Positions 19,714 through 40,854 of a DNA stretch of 64,000 nucleotides are shown piece by piece (within the stretch, counting starts at the first letter, position 1; the number at the start of each line of letters is the position of its first letter). Origin of the DNA: Dyadobacter fermentans (GTDB taxonomy: Bacteria; Bacteroidota; Bacteroidia; Cytophagales; Spirosomataceae). Under the pieces are notes generated by a model. It had not been told where the DNA came from, made no database searches, and saw only the letters and a program-made list of their open reading frames with translations. The translations under genes and the position numbers were made by a program. The stretch lies in contig NZ_JAHXBN010000018.1 of the NCBI RefSeq assembly GCF_019924045.1, positions 372,001 through 436,000 on the forward strand, given 5' to 3'.

Positions 19714-22080
<2,367 letters not shown>

Positions 22081-22136: not shown

Positions 22137-23672
22137 TTAATTTCGGCGTGTCAGCAAGCCCCTCAGCTTTTCGTAGTCGATTTTAGAGTTGTGCCGCGGG
22201 TCTCTCGGAATTTTAGGGATAAAAATAACGTCGCCGAATGCCTCCGGTAACGACCTGATCTCCGCCGCAACGGTATCCCGCCGAGTACTATCAGCCAGCT
22301 CGATCACCGCTGTAAGCCGGCTATTCAACAGCATCACCGTGCCCATTTCCACGCCATTGATCACCTGGAAGCGGTTTTCAAACAGGAATGTCGATAGCAG
22401 TCCATTCGGTGTGCGGATCAGCGACGCGCACCTGCCGGTGAGGAACAGGTTGCCATTAATAAAGCCGCTATCGCCGGTGCGGTGCCAGCATTTGTCACCA
22501 ATAAAAATTTTATTGCGTTGCAATGCCTCAGGGTTGTTCAGATAATCCCGTAGCACGTGCTTTCCCGACACGATGATCTCTCCGATCCCGCCCGGCGCAA
22601 CTTCGAGGGCCGAGAGCGCCTCTTCGTGCGGTGCCGTAATGTTTTCGTCGGTAATCGCGATGATTTTTACGGTCGCTGCCGGTTCCACTTTCCCGACATT
22701 CAATCCCCGGACCGTTTCGGAGGCGATCAGCTCGTCGGCGGCGATCATACTCATCGGCTCGGCTTCGGTTGAGCCATACACAATGCCGATGTGCGCCTTG
22801 GGGAATGCCTCGCGGTACGTGCGGGCCTCGGCCGGGAACACGGGTGCACCGCCTGTTAGTATTTTTTGTATGGTATTCAAAAACAAATCATTACCCTTCA
22901 AGTACCGCGACAATTGCTTGACAAAAAACGGCGAAGCGATAATGGAAGTAACGCCTAGCCCGCTGACCTGGCCCGCGATACGCTCCGGTTGCATGGTATC
23001 CGGCTTGCGCGGATTGAAATCGGCGATCACCGATGTGACGCCGGCGCCCAGGTTAATGAGCAGAACAATAGGCAAAACCGGCATACAAATGTCCCCCGGG
23101 CCCGGATCGATAAGCGGTATCAGTGCCTGGAACTGCTCAAAAAGCAGGCCGTGCGTCCTGATAGCCGCTTTCGGTGTGCCCGTGCTGCCGGTCGTGAATG
23201 TAATGAGGGCAATATCGTCCCGCCGGGTTTCGGGATACGACGAGACTGCCCGATCCGCATCGTACTTCAAACCCAGATGCAGCGGAATCGACCTTAACCC
23301 GGGTAGAAGCCGGGCCAGCACCCGTCCCTTGAACGTCCCGATAAATGCGGCGCATTGCGCCAGCCGGCAGCATTCGACGAGCCGTTTCACGCTCACCCAT
23401 TCGTCGAGGAACACCGCCACCGCCCCGATGCGGAACAGCGCCAGCACGGTCCGGTACAGGTCGTCGCTCATGGGCACGAACACGAGCACACGATCGCCCT
23501 TACGGATACCCTTGCGTAGGAAATGTGCGGCGGTCTGTGCTACGGCCGTTTCCAGCGTTCCGAATGAAATGCTGTTTTCATGGTAAATGATCGCCGGTTT
23601 GCCCGGGTTAATGCGCGCAGCCTCGTGAAAAAGATCGACGATATTGAACCGGTCAGGCAAGGTGTTTTCCAT
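22137..23672 (-). CDS. AMP-dependent acyl/aryl ligase (OleC-like), last gene of cluster
   Basis: A 511-residue adenylate-forming enzyme. The P-loop-like motif FTTGSTGTPKA, the A5-type YGSTEAEP, the TGDSG motif with its Asp, and near the C-terminus the conserved Lys (HNSKIDYEKL) are all present, so it should be active. Overall it most resembles OleC-type and long-chain fatty-acid ligases. It would activate a carboxylic acid with ATP for transfer to CoA, a carrier or an amine/hydroxyl. It overlaps the GNAT-like gene by 20 bases and is the 3'-most gene of a seven-gene unit. Confidence 0.88.
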   Translation of the reverse strand: MENTLPDRFNIVDLFHEAARINPGKPAIIYHENSISFGTLETAVAQTAAHFLRKGIRKGDRVLVFVPMSDDLYRTVLALFRIGAVAVFLDEWVSVKRLVECCRLAQCAAFIGTFKGRVLARLLPGLRSIPLHLGLKYDADRAVSSYPETRRDDIALITFTTGSTGTPKAAIRTHGLLFEQFQALIPLIDPGPGDICMPVLPIVLLINLGAGVTSVIADFNPRKPDTMQPERIAGQVSGLGVTSIIASPFFVKQLSRYLKGNDLFLNTIQKILTGGAPVFPAEARTYREAFPKAHIGIVYGSTEAEPMSMIAADELIASETVRGLNVGKVEPAATVKIIAITDENITAPHEEALSALEVAPGGIGEIIVSGKHVLRDYLNNPEALQRNKIFIGDKCWHRTGDSGFINGNLFLTGRCASLIRTPNGLLSTFLFENRFQVINGVEMGTVMLLNSRLTAVIELADSTRRDTVAAEIRSLPEAFGDVIFIPKIPRDPRHNSKIDYEKLRGLLTRRN

Positions 23673-24663
23673 ACAAAACGTAGTTTCTGTAATGGGTACC
23701 CGAGAAATGCGTGGATAATTTCGTGGAAGTGCCCTGCTCGTAGATGAACGAATGAATAGCGCTGGTATAGCCGAGTTCCACTGCTTTGTGGTAAATTAAA
23801 TTGCCGATCACGTGCCCGAGCCCCCTCCATTCCGGAGCCGGATGCCGGGCCAGGGTTTTGACGATCAGCGTTTTGGTTTGGCTATTGTAAAAATCATGAA
23901 TGCAGAAGAAATATCCCACCAGATTACCCGCTTCGTCCTCGGCCAGCAGCGTGAGGTCGGCATTGATATAAGCCTTTGCTTGCAGGTATTTTTTCAAAAA
24001 GGCCTCCCGGCTGATGGGTGTGTAAAGGAAATTAGTCTTGAAAGCCAGCAGGTTAAAATCATAAACGCGGTTCACCTCCGCTTCAAAATCCGATAGATTA
24101 ATCGGCCTGATCGTGACGCCCAGGGCTTTCAACTCCTTCTCCCGCACCAGTATTTCAGGATTATCCAGCTCCATACCACGGTCGATATTGCTGTAATAAT
24201 GCGCAATAGGCTCCAAACCAGCCGCTTTGAATTGCCTGTTATAGTACAAATGATGATGCGGTTCGGTAAAAAAAAGCGGATTAGCGTGATCGGCCAGGAA
24301 GCGGTAACCCTCCCAGGTGCTGCCATTCATGGGGCCGATCAGGCAGGTACCTCCCCAGCTTTTAACCTTGGAAACAATGTGCAGCCATAATGTGGAAGCG
24401 TAGTCATCATGGTCGGCGCATTCGTAATTCCCAACCGAAAACGCATGCCGCCCGGCATATTGCATCAGCGGATTATCATAAATACTCGCCCTCGCAACGA
24501 CACTTTCCCCATCTTTTACCACAAAACACACTTTCAGAAAGTCGGTCGGAATGGTTTCCGGCATTTTAAGCCGAATGCTGTCCGGCGGATAAATGCGTCC
24601 GGGCAGTTCTGTAAACAAATGAAAATCGGGCTGGCCGGGGCCGGTTTCGGTGATCGTGATCAT
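23653..24663 (-). CDS. GNAT-superfamily-like acyltransferase
   Basis: A 336-residue protein that looks like two GNAT-type halves. The N-terminal half (about 1-150) has FVVKDGESVVARASIY and the loop GTCLIGPMNGSTWEGY; the C-terminal half (about 170-336) has LLAEDEAGNLVGYFFCI and a motif-A-like RHPAPEWRGLGHVIGNLIYHKAVELGY. Such double-GNAT proteins transfer acyl or aminoacyl groups. It overlaps the downstream ligase by 20 bases and the upstream kinase-like gene by ATGA, so it probably acts on the same product. Exact reaction unknown. Confidence 0.75.
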   Translation of the reverse strand: MITITETGPGQPDFHLFTELPGRIYPPDSIRLKMPETIPTDFLKVCFVVKDGESVVARASIYDNPLMQYAGRHAFSVGNYECADHDDYASTLWLHIVSKVKSWGGTCLIGPMNGSTWEGYRFLADHANPLFFTEPHHHLYYNRQFKAAGLEPIAHYYSNIDRGMELDNPEILVREKELKALGVTIRPINLSDFEAEVNRVYDFNLLAFKTNFLYTPISREAFLKKYLQAKAYINADLTLLAEDEAGNLVGYFFCIHDFYNSQTKTLIVKTLARHPAPEWRGLGHVIGNLIYHKAVELGYTSAIHSFIYEQGTSTKLSTHFSGTHYRNYVLYGKHLA

Positions 24664-25316
24664 ATCAGACAGAGGGTTGTTACCACAGTTGCAGGAATGG
24701 TAAAGTTATCCATCCCTTTGACACCCAGGGCCTCAGCTAGCGTAGCTGCGGCAGGAACCAACACAAGCAGCAGCATGCCGGAATGCACATCGTTGAATGT
24801 CGAAACAGTAACGGCCGTCACCAGCAATGCACTCGCAAAAAAAGCTAACGAACCTGCCGCCGATTTGCCTCCGCCCATTACCCGATACTTTCCGAATGGA
24901 AAACGTTTCCCGACCAGCGCCGCTACCGGGTCGCAAATCGCGAGGATCAGGATCGGCAGGTAGAAAACGATCAGGCCCCTGTCCGCCATTTGAAATACCC
25001 CAAAAAGCGCGTAAACGATCATGGGAAACAGGATACTCCCGTACGAAAAGCGGTCGATCGCATTGATGGAAGGCAGCCAGCCAAACTTCAAACTGGCCAG
25101 CAGAATCACCAGAAAACTCGCGCAGAGGAACAAAACCTGCCAATGACTGACCAGCACGACAGGGAAAAGCAATGTAAGCAGGCCGGTTCCCATGTGCACG
25201 ATCTTGCGTGTCCATTCAGCTCTGACCTTCCCGAAATGGTATAATAATTCGGCCAGGCCAAAGAGTGCAAGGAAGCAGCAGGCGAGAATAAGCGGGGGAA
25301 TGATGATTTCTTTCAT
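24660..25316 (-). CDS. Phytol/dolichol/diacylglycerol-kinase-like membrane protein
   Basis: A 218-residue integral membrane protein with about seven helices. It carries the family signature RKIVHMGTGL near the second helix and CDPVAALVGKRFPFGKYR plus GGGKSAAGS in the later half, as in VTE5/FOLK phytol kinases, Sec59 dolichol kinase and Dgk1. These enzymes phosphorylate a lipid alcohol, often using CTP. In this cluster the likely substrate is a prenyl alcohol or prenylated glycerol; this is an inference. The ATG at 25316 is 19 bases after the DUF3419 stop, and its own stop overlaps the GNAT start (ATGA). Confidence 0.82.
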   Translation of the reverse strand: MKEIIIPPLILACCFLALFGLAELLYHFGKVRAEWTRKIVHMGTGLLTLLFPVVLVSHWQVLFLCASFLVILLASLKFGWLPSINAIDRFSYGSILFPMIVYALFGVFQMADRGLIVFYLPILILAICDPVAALVGKRFPFGKYRVMGGGKSAAGSLAFFASALLVTAVTVSTFNDVHSGMLLLVLVPAAATLAEALGVKGMDNFTIPATVVTTLCLI

Positions 25317-25335
25317 AGCTATGCAATGCGGCACA

Positions 25336-26433
25336 TTACCGAACAATCTGGTCGACCATAAAACCTTTGTAAAAAAAGCCCTTATCGATGGCTGTCAGGC
25401 GTTCGGACTCGGCGTGTTTGTATTCGACATTTTCGGGTAAAATCTGCGAAATCCGGCGCGGTACCATCAGGTTCCAGTAGGCCAGCCTGCCGTCCTGTTC
25501 CGTACCGGCAACCAGCGCGCGGGCTGTTTCCCGGAACAAACCGGCATCCATATATTCAAAGATATCGGAGAGGTTCATACAATGGAATTTGCCGTAGTGC
25601 GCAATGGCACCCTGCGCGTAGCATTCTTTCAAATGCAGCCGGTCGACGTTGGCACGCACCCGCGGATAATGCTCCTTTTGCAGGTAATGCGGTAAGAGGC
25701 TGTCGAAGCCGCCTGTGAGGGTATACCGCAAAATATAATTGTCCTGCGCAGCCACCGAAGCGAGCTGAACCGCAGCCTTTTCGAATATGAACTTTGAAAC
25801 AGAACCCTGGACCTGCTTCTGAAACTCGGGATCGCGCCCGTATTTCCCCATCACATACCTGCTGAAAAAGATACGGAACAGCAGCCGCCAGCGCCAGGTA
25901 TTCCAATGGTTTTGGTAAAAATTTGCTTGCTCCTCTTCCGTTTTGGGCTTGAAAAGCGCATCCACCAAGCGCCTCGAATGGATCCAGGGCAGTATTTTGC
26001 TACTGAAAAGTTGAAAATACCGTTCGAATTTCCCCTGGTGGATGACGCCGTTGCCAATCAGCGCCAGGTTCGACTCCCAATAGGCGCGGGTGGCGCTGCT
26101 CAGTTGGCTTTTCAAGGCCTGGAAGCATTGTAAACGACTCTCCGACTGCCTGAAACCGAGAAAGCCCAGCGCCTCTTCCCATTCCAGGTTTTGAATGCAG
26201 ACCTTCTTCAATTCGATCAGAAAAAGCTGGGTAGGATTAATATCGACTGCCGCCACCAATTCGGGATCGGTAACGAGGAAGGAAAAGCTGTTATCCCCTG
26301 CGGAACCGATCGAAAGCACCTTGCTACCCGGGACCGGCGAAAGCCCCGCCAGCAGAATATCCGCATCCTCCCAGCAGTTCGCATACCGGATAATATCAAA
26401 ATTGACCCTTTTTGTTAAATCCTCTTTCGTCAT
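25336..26433 (-). CDS. DUF3419/BtaA-like aminocarboxypropyl transferase
   Basis: A 365-residue protein of the DUF3419 family, whose known member BtaA moves the 3-amino-3-carboxypropyl group of SAM onto the hydroxyl of diacylglycerol in betaine-lipid synthesis. Family features seen are the opening NFDIIRYANCWEDADILL, the SAM-site strand VLSIGSAGDNSFSFL, the acidic VDINPTQLFL, and NYILRYTLTGGF later on. No BtaB-like N-methyltransferase is nearby, so a full betaine lipid is not expected from this cluster alone. Start codon overlaps the stop of the dikinase gene (ATGA at 26430-26433). Confidence 0.85.
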   Translation of the reverse strand: MTKEDLTKRVNFDIIRYANCWEDADILLAGLSPVPGSKVLSIGSAGDNSFSFLVTDPELVAAVDINPTQLFLIELKKVCIQNLEWEEALGFLGFRQSESRLQCFQALKSQLSSATRAYWESNLALIGNGVIHQGKFERYFQLFSSKILPWIHSRRLVDALFKPKTEEEQANFYQNHWNTWRWRLLFRIFFSRYVMGKYGRDPEFQKQVQGSVSKFIFEKAAVQLASVAAQDNYILRYTLTGGFDSLLPHYLQKEHYPRVRANVDRLHLKECYAQGAIAHYGKFHCMNLSDIFEYMDAGLFRETARALVAGTEQDGRLAYWNLMVPRRISQILPENVEYKHAESERLTAIDKGFFYKGFMVDQIVR

Positions 26434-28907
26434 CGGGAAATAGTCCTGATTATGCCCGTACTGCCATCCATTTCAATTTCATCACCTGTTTTGAGGCTTT
26501 TCAGCAGGCCGGTTACCCCAACAATGCACGGCTTGCCCATTTCGCGGGAAACGATCGCCGAATGGCTCAGCAGGCTGCCCCGCTCCACGATAATGCCCGA
26601 TGCACCCGGGAAAAGCGTAACCCAGCCGGGATCGGTACTGGTGGTAACGAGGATGTCGCCGTTCAGCGAAGATACTTCCGCAGGATCGGTCACTACCCTC
26701 ACACGCCCTGTTACCCGCCCTGGTGAGCAACCTACGCCCTTCAAATCGCCTTCCGGCATTTCGACCCGGTCGATATTGAAAAAATCGTTACCGTCGTAGG
26801 GTACGCCATAGGTTGCAAACCGCTCCGAAAGCGGGCCCAGCTGCTGATAATGCCGAAATGCTTTCTGCCGCAATGCCACGAGGGCCTTCATGTCCTGCGT
26901 CACCGCCGTGCCTTCGATGTAGCTGAAAATTTCCTCTTTGGTGAGGTAAAAAATATCCCTGGCATTACCCAGCAGACCATCGGCATAAAACCGCTTCCCG
27001 ATGTAGTTAAAAATCTCCCGCACGATCCCGAATGCACGCGTACGCTCGTAGCGCAGGTTCTCGCGGGCGCTGACGAGCTCGCGCGTGTAGCGCAGCGTGA
27101 GCTGCATTTTCCACCGGCCCATGGTTTTGCCTTTCAAATGCCTTGCTATTTCGCGTTCGGCATTTGTACGGATCACTTCTTCCCGATCACCCGAAAACTG
27201 CGAGCCGGTAATGCCCGTTTCCACGTAAGATTTCAGCACTTTAACGAACCGTGCCGGCTCCTGGCCGTAGGAGATTGTTTCGAGCTTCAACTCGCCTACG
27301 CAGCGCTCGCCGAAATCGGCAATGTAACGGTCGATATCGGCCTTCACGCCAGCGAATTCCGGATCGTTGCTGGCGCTCAGCGTTTCGTGGATAGCGTGTT
27401 CGTTTTTTGTCACAAACAAATCCCTTAACGCCGGCAACGCGGCAATGCGTGCGGCGATGGCAATGCTCCGATGCACAGGCTGCACGGAAATAATGTCGTT
27501 GCTCCCGCATAGCAGGTCGTTATGGAGGTTGGGGTTACCGCCGCCGGTAAACGGCTCGCATTGTTTTTGAAGCATCCCGAACCAGATCATCGCAAAAAAG
27601 TCGTTCAGCAATGGGGCTTTCCATTCAAGCAGGAGCTTACGTTCGAAATTTAGGTACAAATGCATGAGCTCGTCAGCGCTCTTCTCCGCGAAGGGGATTG
27701 CCTTGTATTCGGTGATCGTTCCTTCCACTAGCTGCATAAATTCCCGACGTTTCCGCGGCAGCGCCCTGAAACGGAAAAGCATTTGCACGGCCATTTTCGC
27801 AATGCTCCACCACGCCTTCCCTTTCGGCAAACGGTAGGAGTCCGGGATATCGAACGGCTCCTTCACCCCCATCATTTTCTCCATGTACCGGGCATTAATG
27901 CTGTAACCCGGCAGCATGGCCAGCATATGGTACCAGGTTTTGAGGTTATAGTAAACCCGGCCGTTCAAAAAGCCGAGCGTATTCGCGAACACCCTTTCAT
28001 TTTTCTTGATAACCAATTCACTTACACCCAGATAAGCGCTAAAAAGCTTGTAGGCTACTTCATAGGACTTGCTGATAAAAGAGAATGTCAGCGGGGTGGT
28101 TACGCCGGGATAGGATTCAATAATATTACTGTTATCCCAAAGAATATAGTTGCCGGCAGGCCTGAGTTTCAACGTCGTAATGGGCCTGGTTTGAAGCAAA
28201 TAGATCTGATCGTTCCGGACGGCGAACTCGATGTCCTGCGGCTGGCCCAGCGCTTTTTCGAGCGAGTCGAGTATTTGGCCAAGCTCACGAACCTGCCCGT
28301 CGGTAAGCGCCGGGGTTTGTCTTCCATCCGCCGGAACGGATTGTACCGCATCCCCTTCCAACACAAACTCGTCGGCATTGACCTCGCCTGAAACCAGGCG
28401 ATCGCCCAGGCCGGAAACCGCATTGATGACCTTCTGCTGCCGGTTACCTGTGAGTGGATTAGCGCCAAAAGCGACGCCGGCCGCATCCGCATCGACCATT
28501 TCCTGCACAATCACCGCCACACCACCGGCATCCGAAAGCCCGTGATGTTTCCGGTAGGCCTTTACCCGTTCCGAAAACGCGGATTGCCGGACATCCCCTA
28601 TCCGTGCCGCCAATTCATTCGGCGCTACACACAGGTAACTTTCAAACTGTCCCGCAAACGAAAACGCCGCACCATCTTCCGCGGCGGCCGATGAGCGTAC
28701 CGCAAAATGGCGGGTTCCCTGAAAAAAATCCAGCAAACCGGTAATCAGCTCGGATTCGGGAATATCAGCACGCAATGTTTCCCACGGGATCACCACGAAG
28801 TGCGGCACGGGCAAACCGAGTTCCTTCAAACGAAACAGGTTTCCGGCTTTGCCGCCAATGGTGACGCCGGTTGCTTTGTGGGGTTCGGTATCGGAAATGA
28901 AATACAT
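26430..28907 (-). CDS. PEP-synthase/rifampicin-phosphotransferase-like dikinase
   Basis: An 825-residue three-part protein. The N-terminal part (about 1-310) is the PEP/pyruvate-dikinase ATP-grasp domain (GGKAGNLFRLKELGLPVP, HFAVRSSAAAEDG, VIVQEMVDADAAGVAF, DIEFAV-RNDQIYLLQTRP). A long middle domain (about 330-720) is the variable substrate-binding part. The C-terminus is the swivelling phosphohistidine domain with GSLLSHSAIVSREMGKPCIVG, the catalytic His near residue 780. This order is that of rifampicin phosphotransferase rather than true PEP synthase, so it probably phosphorylates a small or lipid alcohol using ATP. The ATG at 28907 is chosen because the family N-terminus follows directly; it overlaps the ubiA-like stop by one base. 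Confidence 0.88.
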   Translation of the reverse strand: MYFISDTEPHKATGVTIGGKAGNLFRLKELGLPVPHFVVIPWETLRADIPESELITGLLDFFQGTRHFAVRSSAAAEDGAAFSFAGQFESYLCVAPNELAARIGDVRQSAFSERVKAYRKHHGLSDAGGVAVIVQEMVDADAAGVAFGANPLTGNRQQKVINAVSGLGDRLVSGEVNADEFVLEGDAVQSVPADGRQTPALTDGQVRELGQILDSLEKALGQPQDIEFAVRNDQIYLLQTRPITTLKLRPAGNYILWDNSNIIESYPGVTTPLTFSFISKSYEVAYKLFSAYLGVSELVIKKNERVFANTLGFLNGRVYYNLKTWYHMLAMLPGYSINARYMEKMMGVKEPFDIPDSYRLPKGKAWWSIAKMAVQMLFRFRALPRKRREFMQLVEGTITEYKAIPFAEKSADELMHLYLNFERKLLLEWKAPLLNDFFAMIWFGMLQKQCEPFTGGGNPNLHNDLLCGSNDIISVQPVHRSIAIAARIAALPALRDLFVTKNEHAIHETLSASNDPEFAGVKADIDRYIADFGERCVGELKLETISYGQEPARFVKVLKSYVETGITGSQFSGDREEVIRTNAEREIARHLKGKTMGRWKMQLTLRYTRELVSARENLRYERTRAFGIVREIFNYIGKRFYADGLLGNARDIFYLTKEEIFSYIEGTAVTQDMKALVALRQKAFRHYQQLGPLSERFATYGVPYDGNDFFNIDRVEMPEGDLKGVGCSPGRVTGRVRVVTDPAEVSSLNGDILVTTSTDPGWVTLFPGASGIIVERGSLLSHSAIVSREMGKPCIVGVTGLLKSLKTGDEIEMDGSTGIIRTISR

Positions 28908-29878
28908 CAATGGAACAGCAATTTTGAAATCATCGGCCCGGCACCCAGTGTAAGATACATCGCGATCGTCCAGAGCGCCGACGCATATTCGACCATTTTT
29001 GAAAGTTTTGCGGTCCCGGCCTTCCAAAACCATATCGCAGGCAGTGCGCAAAGCAGGAACACGATACCCAAAACCGTCAGCACCACATGCCCATAACCAG
29101 CAAATACCGAAGCAGCCAGGCTGAGCAAAAGGGTGACGGTAAGCACCGCAAGCCATAACCCGATAGCCTTCGGAATACCCAGCAAGGAAGTGTAGGTGAC
29201 TACCCCTTCCGACTCCTGTTCCGGGGCGCGGATTTTGCGGCCTACTTCCAGCACAATGCCGTTCATATAGGATACTGCAAAAAAGAAAAAAAGGCCCTCG
29301 GGCGCCTTCACGCCCGCAAGGAGCCAATCGAGCCCGCTAGCGTAAATGTCGATCAGCGGGATGATGAACATATGCGAAGTAACGTACCAGAACTGATGCT
29401 TTTTGAGCCATTCGGCCACAAAAAACTCTTTTCCCATCAGCGACAGATACCCGACTACCGCCGCGTATATCCAAAGCATTTTAGGAAAGAAAATCAGGTT
29501 TACAAGGATTTGCGCGATAGCGACCAGGATGCCCGTCAGCGCCAACTCGCGGAATGTCACTAGCCCGCGGGGAACGGGCAGTTCTTTACGGAACCGGGCG
29601 TCATCTTCCGCGTCTTTGAATTCGTCAAAGATCCTGACCAGCAGAAAAAGGGATATCGTCGTAAATACCCCTACTGCAAATGTTTTTGCATCCACAAACC
29701 CTTCTGCGCCACGGCATATGCGCGAATAGGAAATGGCTGAGAAGCTAAATGCCGCCACGAGCAAGCCGTGCCCCAGCAACGGAAACCGCTCCTTTTGGTA
29801 AATATAAAACCGGCGGAAAAACGGCGCGCTGTTCTCCCCGGCGTGGCTGAATGCATTTCCCTGAACCGGTAGCTTCAT
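28907..29878 (-). CDS. UbiA-family prenyltransferase
   Basis: A 323-residue membrane protein with eight or nine helices. The first Asp-rich motif is RIFDEFKDAEDDARFR (D85, D89, D93), matching the Mg-diphosphate-binding DxxxDxxxD of UbiA enzymes; the second, usually DxxxD, is less plain and seems represented by NGIVLEVGRKIRAPEQE. UbiA proteins join a prenyl diphosphate to an aromatic ring, glycerol derivative or other acceptor. The ATG at 29878 overlaps the HMG-CoA reductase stop by ATGA. It probably uses the isoprenoid whose supply the reductase raises. Confidence 0.85.
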   Translation of the reverse strand: MKLPVQGNAFSHAGENSAPFFRRFYIYQKERFPLLGHGLLVAAFSFSAISYSRICRGAEGFVDAKTFAVGVFTTISLFLLVRIFDEFKDAEDDARFRKELPVPRGLVTFRELALTGILVAIAQILVNLIFFPKMLWIYAAVVGYLSLMGKEFFVAEWLKKHQFWYVTSHMFIIPLIDIYASGLDWLLAGVKAPEGLFFFFAVSYMNGIVLEVGRKIRAPEQESEGVVTYTSLLGIPKAIGLWLAVLTVTLLLSLAASVFAGYGHVVLTVLGIVFLLCALPAIWFWKAGTAKLSKMVEYASALWTIAMYLTLGAGPMISKLLFH

Positions 29879-31152
29879 CTCTTCCGGCCGAATTTCTGGT
29901 GTGCCGCCGTGAACCGGCCCGCCGACAGCGCTGCCGCAATGGATATTTCGCCAGCCAGCACCAACGCGCCGCATATTTCTGCAAACTTCCGGGTCTTGCC
30001 GGCACCGGCGCAGCCGATCAGTTCGAGGCATTCCTTTTGAGTCGGTAGTGCCGTACCACCACCGACGGTCCCGACGATCAGGTTGGGCAGCGTAACCGAC
30101 ACGTACAGGCCATCGTCGGCTGTAAGTTCCATGCGCGTAATACCCACCGAAGCCTCCGAAACGCAGGCCACATCCTGCCCGGTAGCGATAAACAATGCCG
30201 TAAGGCCGTTGGCATAATGCCCCTGCGCGCCGATGGAACCGCTTTGGATCGTGCCGATCGTCGATGACCGCCAGTATTCCGCCATAGCCCCAGGGCTTGT
30301 TTTCAGCACGTCGTGTATGATTTTTTGCGGGAGCGTGATTTCCGCGGTGACTTTCTTGCCCCGCACATTCGCGAATGACTGGGAAGTCGCCTTTTTATCA
30401 CCTGAAAAATTGCTTTCGATAAACCAGAACTGCGGCTGTACCGGGGCATTCTGAATAATATACTGGCAGATAGCATCCGTGCAGATCGTCACCATGTTCT
30501 GCCCGGACGCGTCGCCCGTGTGATATTCGAATGTGAGAATGAGATGGTTGCCTTCAATATTGGATTTCATGTCGATCAGCTTCGCATAGCGGCTGGCCGA
30601 CTCGGTAATGCGGCGGAATTCTTCCAGCTGGCTGATAATCCACACTAAAAAAGTACCCAGATTACCCAGGTTGTCGAACTTGAAAACCGGCGACCGCTGT
30701 ACCCCGTCGATCAGGCATACCGACGTAGCGCCTCCTGCCAGGTAACACGCCCGTGCACCGCGATGGTAGGACGCGAGCAGGCTGCCCTCACTCGTCGCCA
30801 GCGGTATGTAGAAGTCACCTTTCGCCATGGAGCCGAGCACCGACACCGGGCCGATCACGCCTGTGGGCACCATCGACATTCCGATGTAGTTCTCAATGTT
30901 CCCTTCCAGCATTGAAACATCCGAAAACTGCTGCTTCCCGCTCAGGTAGGGGAAATCCTGGTCCGTTTTTTCCAAAAGAAATGCGAGCCGCTTCCTGATT
31001 CCCTCGACCGAAACCGGGATTTCGGAGGGCAAACTTTCCGGCAGGGATTTACTTAACGGCTTATTTTTGATCTCGTCCAGTAGCTGTTCAAGGTCTTGCA
31101 GGGCGCTCATGGCATGAAGCGCTTTTTTCGTGGTTTCGCTGGTTGAAGACAT
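29875..31152 (-). CDS. HMG-CoA reductase, first gene of cluster
   Basis: A 425-residue soluble 3-hydroxy-3-methylglutaryl-CoA reductase, the enzyme that commits HMG-CoA to mevalonate. Motifs seen are ENYIGMSMVPTGVIGP (substrate site), ATSEGSLLASYHRG with the catalytic Glu, DASGQNM (NADPH site), GTVGGGT, and the C-terminal AGRFTAAHQKFGR with the catalytic His. The sequence follows class I enzymes without their membrane anchor. Start ATG at 31152 is preferred over an upstream GTG. No other mevalonate-pathway gene is in the window. It opens a tightly coupled seven-gene unit, so it probably feeds a dedicated product. Confidence 0.93.
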   Translation of the reverse strand: MSSTSETTKKALHAMSALQDLEQLLDEIKNKPLSKSLPESLPSEIPVSVEGIRKRLAFLLEKTDQDFPYLSGKQQFSDVSMLEGNIENYIGMSMVPTGVIGPVSVLGSMAKGDFYIPLATSEGSLLASYHRGARACYLAGGATSVCLIDGVQRSPVFKFDNLGNLGTFLVWIISQLEEFRRITESASRYAKLIDMKSNIEGNHLILTFEYHTGDASGQNMVTICTDAICQYIIQNAPVQPQFWFIESNFSGDKKATSQSFANVRGKKVTAEITLPQKIIHDVLKTSPGAMAEYWRSSTIGTIQSGSIGAQGHYANGLTALFIATGQDVACVSEASVGITRMELTADDGLYVSVTLPNLIVGTVGGGTALPTQKECLELIGCAGAGKTRKFAEICGALVLAGEISIAAALSAGRFTAAHQKFGRKR

Positions 31153-31247: not shown

Positions 31248-32567
31248 TCACTTAGTAAACAGAAAAGCTTGCCCAGCCTGCGTAATGGTCGCTTCTTTTT
31301 GCTCCGGCCGGAACTCCACAGTGAGTTGCACGGAATCAATTTTAAATACATCCTTTTTGACGGGCGTCAGCAGAAATGTTGGCTGGCCTGTGGGTTGAAA
31401 GAACAGCTTGTTGTCCTTATGGCTGATCGTTACTTTCAACGGGATTTGTTTGCTCTCGTAAACGCCCAGGTACGGCTCGGCCTCCTCCGGGCTAACCTGC
31501 ATGGCGTTAAAATCGGGAATAATGACGGGAACCTTATAGTAAGCGCTCAGCATGGCTATAAGAATGTCGTTCAGCGGATAATCAACCCCATTCGAGAAAA
31601 CAGCGCCGGCCAGGCTATCACCGGGGAAATAAACCATCATGGTCTGGAAGCCGTCCAGGCCACCGGTGTGGCCGTACCCTTTTTTCTGGTAAAATGGTAT
31701 AGGCGCCAGTCCAATACCAAATATGTCGACGATCTTGGTCATTTGGGTCAGACTCTGCTGTGATACCAGTTTACCGGTAAAAAGCGCATTCACGAACGCC
31801 AGCACATCGCCCGGAGTCGAAACGATTGCCCCTGCACCTGCCGGCTGGCTAAGATCGGTTTCCTCCCGCTTTTCCCAGCTTTTTGAAAATGAATAGGAAT
31901 AAGCATCACCGCGAGCCGGGTCGATCTTCCCGCCAAAACTGGTGTTTTTCAAACCAATACGGGCAAGAATCCGCTCTTGGAGGTTCTTTTCATAGGACTT
32001 TTTAGTCACTTCCTCGATGATGTATCCCAGAAGAATATAACCGGTATTGCTGTACTTTGCCTCCGCGTCGGGAATGAAGTCGGGTTTATATTTGTCAAAA
32101 ACGGCCAGCATCTCGGCGCGCGTCCTGGGTTGTGTCTGCTGTTTCCAGTAAGCCTCGTCGTCGGTAAAATTGTGGATGCCGCTCCGGTGGCGCAGCATCA
32201 TTTCGATCGTGATCCGGCCCGCATTCGGGATGCTGGGGAAGTATTTATCCAAATGTGTATCCAACGCAAGCTTTTTCTCTTCTACCAGCTGCATGATCAT
32301 CGTTGCGGTGAAGGTCTTGGTAATGGACCCGATGCGGTAGCGGGTTTGCGGCGTCGCTTTTGCGCTCCGCGCACTATCGACCACCGCATAGCCGATGGCC
32401 CGTTCATACACTTTCTGCCCCTTGTGCATCAGCAGCACGCTCGCCATCGATTTATTGTGCACTGTGAGGGAGTCGAAAAGCCGGTCGAGGTCCGCGGTAT
32501 TGATTTGCTGGGCCGATGCGGAAAACGCGAAAAACAATGCGACGATCGGTATCAGTTTGAGTTTCAT
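31248..32567 (-). CDS. Serine hydrolase of the beta-lactamase/PBP-like family
   Basis: A 439-residue exported protein with signal peptide MKLKLIPIVALFFAFSASAQ. The catalytic domain (about 25-340) has SITK (SxxK), YSNTGY (YxN) and HTGG (in place of KTG), the usual set for class C-type esterases and D-aminopeptidase-like hydrolases. A small beta domain closes the C-terminus. Such proteins are esterases, peptidases or unknowns more often than true beta-lactamases. ATG at 32567 starts the signal peptide. It lies 95 bases upstream of the HMG-CoA reductase start on the same strand, so readthrough into the cluster is possible. Confidence 0.9.
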   Translation of the reverse strand: MKLKLIPIVALFFAFSASAQQINTADLDRLFDSLTVHNKSMASVLLMHKGQKVYERAIGYAVVDSARSAKATPQTRYRIGSITKTFTATMIMQLVEEKKLALDTHLDKYFPSIPNAGRITIEMMLRHRSGIHNFTDDEAYWKQQTQPRTRAEMLAVFDKYKPDFIPDAEAKYSNTGYILLGYIIEEVTKKSYEKNLQERILARIGLKNTSFGGKIDPARGDAYSYSFSKSWEKREETDLSQPAGAGAIVSTPGDVLAFVNALFTGKLVSQQSLTQMTKIVDIFGIGLAPIPFYQKKGYGHTGGLDGFQTMMVYFPGDSLAGAVFSNGVDYPLNDILIAMLSAYYKVPVIIPDFNAMQVSPEEAEPYLGVYESKQIPLKVTISHKDNKLFFQPTGQPTFLLTPVKKDVFKIDSVQLTVEFRPEQKEATITQAGQAFLFTK

Positions 32568-38381: not shown

Positions 38382-39647
38382 CTATTTAAGATAAAAACTG
38401 CGATTGCCGGATGTTTTCCGGATGTGAAGGACGTAATCGAAATCGTCGGAAAGGGAGCCATCGAAAAACTGATTGTCGGCCAGACCATAAACCAGCAATC
38501 TGTACCGACCTGGCAAGCGCAACCCTTTCTGCGATTGCTTCAAAACGGCCGTGTTGAAAAAGAATACCGGTTGAGCAAGTTTTGAAAAATGGTATTCCCA
38601 AGTGGTACTGTCGCCCGCGAAGACTTTGTTTTTATCCGTAATGTGGCCTACCGAGGGGTCGATTGTCGTGTAAAAACCATAAGAGGTTGTCAGCCCCACG
38701 CATTGATAGGCACCTCCTAATTTCCGCGCCAGAAACGAACCGGTACTTTTGGAAAAGATGTTCGGTGTTCGTTGTAAATGCCCATTGTGCGCCAGCAGCA
38801 CCATCTTTCGACCGGGCTCCATTTCCGCCAGTACGTTTTCGGCCATTAATGAATCCCTTATTTCCGATTGTATGTCCATTGCGTGGGCATGCCGGGAATC
38901 GTTCAGCAGCAGGAATTGCCGGTAGCTGCGAATGCTTTTTCTGACCATTTCATCTGTCTGAGCCTTGCCTGTCAGCTTATCCAGCACCTGATCGCTTAAT
39001 GTTTTCAACTCCGCAAAATCCGCTGCACTGATACTGTGATCATACACCTCATTATTAAGCAATTCATAATAATGCATAAGGCTTTTCAGCGAATCCGAGA
39101 TGTCGCTGGCTACGCCGGAATCCCGCAGGTTTTGCAGCGATTGAAACGGGCTTTGCATGTCAAAACCAAAGAAACGTATGGCCTTCCCACGTGCTTTGCC
39201 TATCCGGCCGACGCTCTCTACCAAATCCACAAACTCAGGACATTCATATCCATACAACCTGAACGAGCGCAAAATCGCTTTTAAATCGCCGCGACCTTCC
39301 CGCAGGTAGTCATTTAACTTATCGACTTCGGCCATGGGCGCTTCCAGCCCGATTTTCGTAAAGGCAGGATCCGCAGCCAGCACCTTGATCAGCAGCAACC
39401 GGGCAGTGAAAAATTCCGAAGTACCATGCGACTGCTCCCCTATCCCCAAAACCTTAAATTCTCCGGGCAGTGCCTTGCTCATCATGCGCACATTACTTTC
39501 GCCTGCAAGATCGAGCGAATCCAGCCTCACCATGTGACCTTTTAATTGATTAACCAGGCCATTGTCCTGGCCATTGACCAGGACCGGAGTACAACAAACG
39601 TACAAGAAGGAAAAAACCGACAAAAAAGAAAGACCGGATAGCTTCAT
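38382..39647 (-). CDS. Erythromycin-esterase-family protein
   Basis: A 421-residue exported protein (signal peptide MKLSGLSFLSVFSFLYVC, with a Cys that could also make it a lipoprotein). The fold is the erythromycin esterase/EreA-like family: GIGEQSHGTSEFF with the catalytic-type His, LEAPMAEVDKLNDYLREG, FGFDMQSP, and AHNGHLQRTP. Most family members outside Ere enzymes have unknown substrates; calling this antibiotic resistance is not justified. Stands alone between the protease and the deacetylase-like gene. Confidence 0.85.
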   Translation of the reverse strand: MKLSGLSFLSVFSFLYVCCTPVLVNGQDNGLVNQLKGHMVRLDSLDLAGESNVRMMSKALPGEFKVLGIGEQSHGTSEFFTARLLLIKVLAADPAFTKIGLEAPMAEVDKLNDYLREGRGDLKAILRSFRLYGYECPEFVDLVESVGRIGKARGKAIRFFGFDMQSPFQSLQNLRDSGVASDISDSLKSLMHYYELLNNEVYDHSISAADFAELKTLSDQVLDKLTGKAQTDEMVRKSIRSYRQFLLLNDSRHAHAMDIQSEIRDSLMAENVLAEMEPGRKMVLLAHNGHLQRTPNIFSKSTGSFLARKLGGAYQCVGLTTSYGFYTTIDPSVGHITDKNKVFAGDSTTWEYHFSKLAQPVFFFNTAVLKQSQKGLRLPGRYRLLVYGLADNQFFDGSLSDDFDYVLHIRKTSGNRSFYLK

Positions 39648-39731: not shown

Positions 39732-40628
39732 TTACAACAACCTCGCTACCCGGTACGTATTCGCATGGGCCTCAATGATCGTTTTGATCTGAGGCGAGTA
39801 GCCTCCGCCCATGCTGCATTGAACCGGTATACCGAGCTGGTGAGCGGTTTGAAAAATAATTTCGTCGCGCTGGCGGCACCCATCGATGGTACAGGATAGC
39901 CTTCCAAGCTTGTCCGTTGCCAGTATATCGACACCGGCCTGGTAGAAGATAAAATCGGGCTTGACGCGCTCAACGAGCTGGGGGAAGATTCCGCGGAGCA
40001 ACGAAAGATAGGCTTCATCTTCCATGCGGTCGGGGAGCTCCACATCGAGATCGCTCTTCTTTTTCCGGAATGGATAGTTATTCTTTGCGTGCATGGAGAA
40101 TGTAAAAACACGCGGCTCGTTGGTAAAAATATCGGCGGTACCGTTACCCTGATGTACATCGAGGTCTGCAATCAGTACTTTAGCTGCCTTTCCATGATCC
40201 ACCAGGTATTGCGCAGCCACGGCCTGATCGTTGATCATGCAAAACCCCTCTCCCGCGTCGCGTAAAGCGTGGTGAGTCCCACCGGCAATATTGAATGCAA
40301 TACCCGTTTCCAATGCCCTGAGCGCACCTTCCACGGTCCCACTGGCAATGCGCAGTTCCCGCTCCACGAGCAAGGGCGTCTGCTCAAATCCGATACGGCG
40401 CGTCTCGGGGCGACTCAGCATTCCAGCCACGAAGCGATCGGCATAGGTGCGGTCGTGCACCGCGTACACGGAAGGCATATCGATAGGTTCGGGCGTAAAA
40501 AAATCAGACTCTTCCGCGATGCCCTCGCGCAGGAGCTGCAAAGGCAGCAACTCATATTTATCCATCGGAAAGCGGTGACCTTCCGGAACAGGATATTTAA
40601 AAACAGGATGAAAGGCAATCGGAAACAT
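39732..40628 (-). CDS. Histone-deacetylase-like amidohydrolase
   Basis: A 298-residue cytoplasmic protein of the HDAC/AcuC/acetylpolyamine-amidohydrolase family. Zinc ligands and active-site residues are in GGTHHA, DLDVHQGNGT (Asp, His), and QAGVDIL (Asp); CSMGGGYSP closes the domain with the glycine loop. Bacterial members remove acyl groups from small amines or protein lysines. The ATG at 40628 gives the family start MFPIAFHPVFKYPVPEGHRFP-like. Located after the susCD terminator, so separately transcribed. Confidence 0.92.
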   Translation of the reverse strand: MFPIAFHPVFKYPVPEGHRFPMDKYELLPLQLLREGIAEESDFFTPEPIDMPSVYAVHDRTYADRFVAGMLSRPETRRIGFEQTPLLVERELRIASGTVEGALRALETGIAFNIAGGTHHALRDAGEGFCMINDQAVAAQYLVDHGKAAKVLIADLDVHQGNGTADIFTNEPRVFTFSMHAKNNYPFRKKKSDLDVELPDRMEDEAYLSLLRGIFPQLVERVKPDFIFYQAGVDILATDKLGRLSCTIDGCRQRDEIIFQTAHQLGIPVQCSMGGGYSPQIKTIIEAHANTYRVARLL

Positions 40629-40659
40629 GCAAATGGACGATACTAAGTCCCAAATTTGC

Positions 40660-40695
40660 AAAAAAGAAAGCGACCCTCCGAAAAGGGCCGCTTTC
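40660..40695 (-). terminator. Terminator of the minus-strand susCD operon
   Basis: Read on the minus strand, GAAAGCGGCCCT (40695-40684) pairs with AGGGTCGCTTTC (40677-40666), one mismatch, and is followed by TTTTTT (40665-40660). It lies after the SusD stop and before the deacetylase-like start. Confidence 0.75.
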
Positions 40696-40854
40696 AAAAA
40701 CGGGTGCTGGATTATTCATTGTCACCGGCAATTACGCCAAACTCCGTGAATTCAGCATAATTAATTCGATAGTATGGGGCAAATAACCCTAGCCTTGGGG
40801 CGAACATCCGGAAACGTGGGATGAAAAAAATTCATCCTATTCCGAAAATTCATT

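Follow-up and report, generated by a model that had tools for sequence, protein, structure and literature searches.

The window analysed here, a 64,000-nucleotide stretch of an 8.0 Mb Dyadobacter fermentans genome (G000:C72:372001-436000), carries on its minus strand a run of seven genes (31152..22137) that form one operon, a functional unit conserved far beyond close strains. From the first gene to the last they encode a relative of 3-hydroxy-3-methylglutaryl-CoA (HMG-CoA) reductase (HMGR), a UbiA-superfamily prenyltransferase, a dikinase, a DUF3419 protein, a phytol/dolichol-kinase-like membrane protein, a tandem GNAT acyltransferase and an AMP-forming acyl ligase (Table 1). The catalysis of the HMGR looks intact while its recognition of HMG does not and, judged by its pocket residues, the enzyme probably reduces another acyl thioester. 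Our tentative proposal, to which we give somewhat less than an even chance, is that the operon makes an undescribed, probably isoprenoid-linked, amino-acid-derived, ceramide-like phospholipid. An earlier note on this DNA knew of no pathway on record that combines these genes, and in searches of open-licence PMC papers for the lipid, the operon or its genes we likewise saw none listed that describes it.

A seven-gene operon conserved across Bacteroidota

Every frame of the run is intact, with an ATG start and a single terminal stop. The junctions, read from HMGR to ligase, measure -4, -1, -4, +19, -4 and -20 bases, in exact agreement with the five overlaps and one 19-base gap given in the earlier note. 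A dikinase scan of genome contigs yielded 399 relatives, of which the best 80 loci were kept; the nearest named relatives belonged to Dyadobacter, the dikinase of D. jiangsuensis being 90% identical (the scan may leave out records from the genome of the window itself). When these Bacteroidota loci were compared with the window by tblastn, 57 of the 80 had all seven genes on one strand in the same order. There was no gap above 400 bases in 27 of the ordered loci; the other 30 show gene insertions or larger gaps, as in L049, whose ligase lies 6.9 kb away at a contig end. Best-segment identity to the window over the ordered loci was 51-98% for the HMGR, 44-90% for the dikinase and 26-86% for the GNAT protein. 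HMGR and UbiA adjoin in most loci. The record titles name Cytophagales, Sphingobacteriaceae, Chitinophagales, Flavobacteriales, Saprospiraceae and unplaced Bacteroidetes, so that the order, for which the earlier note had proposed a search across Bacteroidota, is not confined to close strains. The lack of conservation that the note had named as refuting its reading was thus not observed, and the gene arrangement is better founded than the note put it. Thirteen of the remaining 23 loci are attributable to contig ends, L082 is ambiguous and nine are real departures; the phytol-kinase-like gene is missing in L052, L106, L107 and L109, and in L068 and L094 the dikinase stands without the other six genes.

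Within the window's family the DUF3419 gene is patchily distributed: relatives (E <= 1e-10) occur in 25 of 222 genomes, ten of these 25 having a distant kind (22-30% identity), and in 12 of the 48 genomes of the genus Dyadobacter, the window's own included. In a single-contig Dyadobacter genome in which the cluster is otherwise present, the DUF3419 gene matches as two overlapping pieces (L016/L027, G093:C1:7079905-7080994), possibly a frameshift. Some 300 kb ahead of the window, its genome has another, distantly related DUF3419 gene (L031, G000:C72:74319-74864) in the middle of a tight three-gene set; a similar arrangement is seen in L028 and L029.

A changed substrate pocket in the operon HMGR

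The HMGR of the window and those of 63 loci with a long enough frame were aligned with PDB chains 1dq8 (human) and 6hr7, with residue numbering anchored on Glu559; the human letters at the named pocket positions agree with the papers cited below. Glu559, Lys691, Asp767 and His866, which we take to be the catalytic residues of HMGR, are unchanged in all 64 cluster proteins, as are Arg590, Lys692, Asn658 and Asn755, and the asparagine of the NADP motif is kept. Ser684 is replaced by Glu and Met657 by Gln in 64 of 64, and Lys735 by Ser (50), Thr (8) or Ala (6). Both Lys735 and Ser684 are kept in 1dq8 and 6hr7. Excerpts of PMC9500038 describe Lys735 as salt-bridged to the HMG carboxylate and count Ser684 with the conserved polar contacts; those of PMC3875450 give the pocket residues together with the NADP motif DAMGMN, in which position 657 is the second Met. 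Compared with class I HMGR of the mevalonate pathway, the cluster protein thus keeps the catalytic residues and the NADP-motif asparagine and differs in the Ser684, Lys735 and Met657 substitutions, and in belonging to a genus that has no mevalonate pathway.

The combination of Glu684 and Gln657 was also observed in two more classes of Bacteroidota HMGR, a form of 513-518 amino acids and a kinase-fused form. In a tree of 33 HMGRs, 24 of them from the 64 cluster proteins, the three classes separate with support of 100/99, 100/99 and 100/100. The 513-518 amino acid form stands apart from the operon and has an extra N-terminal part; Glu684 and Gln657 are present in those of its members that were aligned.

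One way to retain the parent reaction is to suppose that mevalonate itself is a building block. The HMGR would make it, the AMP ligase would activate it and the GNAT protein would transfer the mevalonyl group to an amine, all three enzymes being encoded in one operon; the SidI/SidF pair of fungal siderophores is a model for such activation and transfer, and HMG-CoA could derive from leucine breakdown. We consider this improbable, given that the lysine for the HMG carboxylate is lost and Ser684 is Glu in 64 of 64 proteins, and that a diverged form of the cluster (type B, below) keeps ligase and GNAT while HMGR was found in none of its five genomes.

Absence of the mevalonate pathway from the genus

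In the earlier note the HMGR was read as raising isoprenoid supply, through mevalonate, for genes that prenylate, phosphorylate and decorate an acceptor. That HMGR and UbiA mostly adjoin is in keeping with such a role, as is a polyprenyl-synthetase-family gene lying downstream in 3 of the 80 loci. When the rest of the mevalonate pathway was looked for, as that note had proposed, the genus Dyadobacter proved to be without it. IspH, an enzyme of the methylerythritol phosphate (MEP) pathway, was found in 48 of 48 Dyadobacter genomes, whereas the C-terminal domains of HMG-CoA synthase and of mevalonate-diphosphate decarboxylase (MDD) were found in 0 of 48, the two mevalonate kinases not being searched; positive control genomes were matched in each case. 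The cluster HMGR is the only HMGR found in the window's genome.

For a pathway comparison, 50 of the 80 source genomes were taken. HMGR domains were present in 48 of the 50 and MDD in 14, and exactly these 14 genomes hold an extra HMGR with a frame of 440-472 amino acids, which lies within 2 kb of MDD in four. All four extra HMGRs that were scanned passed the class II model TIGR00532; the EESSVV motif is common to all 14, and we take it as the mark of class II in the ten that were not scanned with NCBIfam. The cluster protein is a relative of class I, scoring 328 bits against TIGR00533, below the cut-off of 442. With a separate HMGR of class II type in each of the 14 genomes that have MDD, neither HMG-CoA synthase nor MDD found in the genus and a changed pocket, a role in mevalonate supply is very improbable. 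As far as this evidence goes, the earlier interpretation therefore stands in its coupled, lipid-type cluster and falls in the role of HMGR; its isoprenoid link is upheld by UbiA and by the three loci with a polyprenyl-synthetase-family gene. For HMGR genes of Bacteroidota without a mevalonate pathway, there is thereby a set of partner genes, a signature of residues (Glu684 present, Lys735 absent) and a candidate type of substrate.

Family assignments of the other six proteins

Pfam scores for the window's proteins are given in Table 1; slightly extended starts were used for three of them. The UbiA protein falls just below the Pfam cut-off, most of its listed close relatives carry PF01040, and its NCBIfam match (PRK13592, 85 bits) is far below cut-off. 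Its acid motif, which was compared with the Asp-rich NDxxDxxxD, reads DExKDxxxD without variation in 27 of 27 sequences. The best PDB profile match of the family was digeranylgeranylglyceryl phosphate (DGGGP) synthase, a weak one (E 0.01).

That match brings in an archaeal-type route, in which UbiA would add a second geranylgeranyl group to geranylgeranylglyceryl phosphate (GGGP) and BtaA-like chemistry would decorate the glycerol ether. The archaeal phospholipid route (GGGP synthase, DGGGP synthase, CarS, CDP-alcohol transferase) has been proposed for FCB (Fibrobacteres-Chlorobi-Bacteroidetes) bacteria as well (excerpts of PMC7852524), and the operon resembles it in the UbiA-type transferase, in CTP-dependent lipid enzymes and in a CarS-like gene beside an HMGR-kinase fusion; DUF3419, ligase, HMGR and dikinase have no counterpart in it. 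The GGGP synthase family (PcrB) is present in 48 of 48 Dyadobacter genomes; it is also present in the 36 without a DUF3419 match and therefore does not track the operon. Since the UbiA match is weak and the ligase and the reductase are left unexplained, we regard this origin of the lipid as improbable.

Another widespread Bacteroidota operon around a little-known UbiA is the ebo cluster with UbiA-297. As given in excerpts of PMC9235831, its gene content is EboA-E, and it is by gene content, not by a UbiA alignment, that we set the two apart; UbiA-297 was rejected as the operon's UbiA because it belongs to the ebo cluster.

The best NCBIfam match of the dikinase was PRK06241.2-2 (723 bits, cut-off 883). 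It shares its domain plan with Rph, PigC and RedH, with NCBIfam matches in the range of 279-297 bits. Identity with any of the three was rejected, the scores being far below all three cut-offs (282.6 against 999, 279.1 against 1300 and 296.5 against 1350 bits, respectively), and the partner genes differ.

In the DUF3419 protein an SxxSxGDN loop is invariant in 29 of 29 sequences, and a PDB sequence search with the family gave no relatives beyond chance matches. In the synthesis of the betaine lipid diacylglyceryltrimethylhomoserine (DGTS) by BtaA and BtaB, BtaA transfers the 3-amino-3-carboxypropyl group of S-adenosylmethionine (SAM), and the operon's protein should do the same. BtaA matches the DUF3419 Pfam family (excerpts of PMC6642084), a membership that supports the BtaA-type transfer assumed in the earlier note. 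Unlike the BtaA/BtaB system, the operon has DUF3419 as the sole methyltransferase-type gene of the seven, no gene for the BtaB partner N-methyltransferase being found in a search confined to these seven, and combines it with an acyltransferase, an AMP ligase, a reductase and a kinase; its acceptor need not be diacylglycerol.

Neither the kinase-like nor the GNAT protein of the window has a Pfam match of its own, and their assignments are supplied by Pfam matches of relatives together with fold matches. CTP_transf_1 was matched at E <= 0.01 by 7 of 30 relatives of the kinase-like protein (best E 6e-5), and the two scores examined were both below the cut-off of 24. The nearest fold was CDP-diacylglycerol synthetase, the profile match between the family and the CdsA neighbours described below was weak (probability 16%), and no relative was found in the PDB sequence search. 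The family has an RKxxH clamp in 30 of 30 sequences, which is a motif of phytol/dolichol (prenol) kinases (excerpts of PMC10849223). For the GNAT family, Acetyltransf_1 was matched in 17 of 32 relatives. The AlphaFold model (pLDDT 94.5) gave as its best Foldseek match the tandem GNAT 7q3a (E 9.6e-13, TM 0.60 over the chain), with two GNAT folds in one chain, and a PDB sequence search yielded nothing beyond chance matches. The AMP ligase reached 333 bits with NCBIfam PRK09274, below its cut-off; its identification as OleC, an olefin beta-lactone synthetase, was rejected at 195.5 bits against a cut-off of 900 and 159.3 against 850.

CDP-lipid neighbours and a swapped kinase

CDP-alcohol transferase genes were found in 16 of the 80 loci and CTP_transf_1 (CDP-lipid synthase) genes likewise in 16, the family names resting on Pfam for two representatives each. 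With such a link in a fifth of the loci, the relatives point to a phospholipid.

Three Bacteroidota metagenome-assembled genomes (MAGs) encode a fusion of an HMGR-like protein with a kinase of APH/EcKL type, the frames reaching 744 and 791 amino acids. The phytol-kinase-like gene was searched for in 18 genomes hand-picked from the 80 source genomes, odd loci first. It was absent from all three fusion genomes and present in 14 of 14 searched genomes other than these and G225; weak profile matches in G225 and G227 (E 1e-6 to 1e-8, frames of about 540-550 amino acids) were counted as absent. The fused kinase may therefore stand in for the phytol-kinase-like protein in the three genomes. A CarS-like gene and then a CDP-alcohol transferase gene follow the fusion in two of the three. 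Near the fusion of G226 two overlapping frames make up a second gene of dikinase-like (PPDK_N) type (L187:1227-3865).

A diverged cluster, type B, was observed in four genomes from other genera of the family (L204-L207); for a fifth genome, G111, only ligase and DUF3419 were observed, side by side (L022). The UbiA, dikinase, DUF3419, GNAT and ligase proteins of L204 are 24-33% identical to those of the window (E 8e-11 to 3e-139). An APH/EcKL kinase takes the place of the phytol-kinase type, and it is homologous to the HMGR-fused kinase (25-28% identity, E 4e-25 to 5e-32). From this comparison the constant core consists of UbiA, dikinase, DUF3419, GNAT and ligase plus a kinase, whose type is swapped; HMGR belongs to the cluster form of the window and not to type B. 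The swap counts for a kinase step in the route. Next to the type B cluster in L204-L206 there is a large membrane protein, MMPL/RND-like by eye.

These kinases also bear on a reading in which the phytol-kinase-like protein is a prenol kinase recycling geranylgeraniol for UbiA, and the operon makes not a membrane lipid but a small molecule of aromatic or quinone-like type. The RKxxH clamp is as in prenol kinases, a P450-family gene lies downstream in 2 of 80 loci, and 15 of 80 have an SRPBCC-type gene (Pfam on one of each). Aromatics are commonly prenylated by UbiA enzymes (excerpts of PMC9235831). On the other side are the possible replacement of the protein by the HMGR-fused kinase in three genomes and the APH-type kinase of type B. 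Such kinases act on small alcohols. Together with the CDP-lipid genes this makes the prenol-kinase reading unlikely, though it deserves to be kept in mind.

A candidate route and its product

The phospholipid that we propose could be built with the chemistry of the parent families. Prenyl transfer is the work of UbiA enzymes, acylation of amines that of GNATs and formation of acyl thioesters that of AMP ligases; the step from thioester to alcohol is HMGR chemistry, and CdsA/CarS and CDP-alcohol transferases build phospholipids. In the proposed route (1) UbiA, together with the dikinase, would prenylate a small acceptor and ready it, (2) DUF3419 would add the 3-amino-3-carboxypropyl group of SAM, (3) the tandem GNAT would acylate the amine and (4) the AMP ligase would convert the carboxyl to a thioester. 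This thioester would be (5) reduced to a primary alcohol by the HMGR-like enzyme with two NADPH, the parent family's chemistry on a new substrate, and the alcohol would be (6) phosphorylated by the phytol-kinase-like protein and (7) given a head group by CdsA/CarS-type enzymes and CDP-alcohol transferases, whose genes belong to the operon or adjoin it in some species and are presumably housekeeping elsewhere. Comparative support exists for steps 5-7 and family chemistry for steps 1-4, the order of which is a guess.

The end product would be akin to ceramide phosphate and would form without serine palmitoyltransferase, for which the operon has no gene. With bacterial sphingolipid and ceramide-phosphate synthesis by Spt and bCerS, the likeness lies in a phosphorylated amino alcohol with an amide-linked acyl chain; here the amino alcohol would derive from the C4 unit of SAM and a reduced carboxyl. 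A stronger form of the proposal is that the operon makes a new sphingolipid-like class of phospholipid, with a backbone of isoprenoid and SAM aminocarboxypropyl and an HMGR recruited to make the head-group alcohol. This we think unlikely, if far from negligible.

Several observations weigh against the proposed phospholipid and its route. The product is proposed from genes alone, and what UbiA prenylates and what the dikinase contributes to the route are conjectural. An adjacent HMGR is missing in six loci with upstream sequence (L046, L066, L097, L106, L107 and L109), and two of the 50 source genomes, the MAGs G223 and G224, have no HMGR of class I type. No HMGR was found in the five type B genomes (G159 is 71% complete), which counts against its being needed everywhere; there, either another enzyme carries out the reduction or none is needed before the kinase. 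CDP genes are missing from 64 of the 80 loci, the L188 fusion has no CDP-lipid genes beside it within 2.4 kb, and of the CarS-like genes one passes the Pfam cut-off and the other does not. The Rosetta evidence of the fusion comes from three MAGs, two of them with close kinase parts (53% identical); a search for the kinase half in another 395 Bacteroidota genomes, a set without a known-positive genome, gave no match, and G225 has no kinase gene, yet no fusion was found there.

As it stands, the conserved operon with its re-pocketed HMGR is a variant of lipid biosynthesis and not yet a new category. If the stronger form is true, two-chain phospholipids would have a fourth route of synthesis, beside glycerol-3-phosphate, glycerol-1-phosphate and serine-derived bases, and such a phospholipid would be present across several orders of Bacteroidota. 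A ceramide-like isoprenoid phospholipid would be an unseen class of membrane lipid in widespread, partly culturable bacteria, and a second reaction would have evolved within the HMGR family. The mass signature suggested in the earlier note, a prenyl product with a C4H7NO2 addition, would then be too narrow, since that shift would not appear once the carboxyl had been reduced and phosphorylated.

Genomic setting and coordinates

Upstream of the operon, 95 bases off on the same strand, lies a beta-lactamase family gene (31248-32564), and downstream, on the opposite strand, a gene read by eye as catalase-peroxidase (19720-22080). Clustering of neighbour genes over the 80 loci showed that neither the upstream nor the downstream flanking gene recurs outside loci whose titles name Dyadobacter, and the operon is therefore taken, from the genes alone, as exactly seven genes.

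Table 1. Coordinates of the operon genes (window positions) and of related features at other loci
Feature	Position	Strand	Pfam or other match
Class I HMG-CoA-reductase-like protein, altered substrate pocket, 425 aa	29875..31152	-	PF00368 (HMG-CoA_red) 379.7 bits, above cut-off
UbiA-superfamily membrane prenyltransferase, 323 aa	28907..29878	-	UbiA 30.8 bits (cut-off 34.2)
PEP-synthase/rifampicin-phosphotransferase-like dikinase, 825 aa	26430..28907	-	PPDK_N 176 bits and PEP-utilizers 84 bits, both above cut-off
DUF3419 (BtaA family), proposed SAM 3-amino-3-carboxypropyl transferase, 365 aa	25336..26433	-	PF11899 220.4 bits (cut-off 28.2)
Phytol/dolichol-kinase-like membrane protein, proposed CTP-dependent lipid-alcohol kinase, 218 aa	24660..25316	-	
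Tandem GNAT acyltransferase, 336 aa	23653..24663	-	Acetyltransf_1 in relatives; fold
AMP-forming acyl ligase, fatty-acid-CoA-ligase/OleC-like, 511 aa	22137..23672	-	AMP-binding 151 bits, above cut-off
HMGR-kinase fusion	L187:7237-9390		
HMGR-kinase fusion	L190:3-1844		
HMGR-kinase fusion	L188:20-2380		
513-518 aa HMGR-like protein	L191:5376-6929		
513-518 aa HMGR-like protein	L192:1310-2851		
513-518 aa HMGR-like protein	L193:3131-4669		
513-518 aa HMGR-like protein	L194:4637-6181		
513-518 aa HMGR-like protein	L195:11511-13061		
Type B cluster	L204:2162-10441		
Type B cluster	L205:6765-14968		
Type B cluster	L206:5257-13531		
Type B cluster	L207		

Elsewhere in the window, two further minus-strand genes were assigned to families: 38382-39647 to the erythromycin-esterase family, above the Pfam cut-off and with the named Ere models far below theirs, and 39732-40697 to the histone-deacetylase family.

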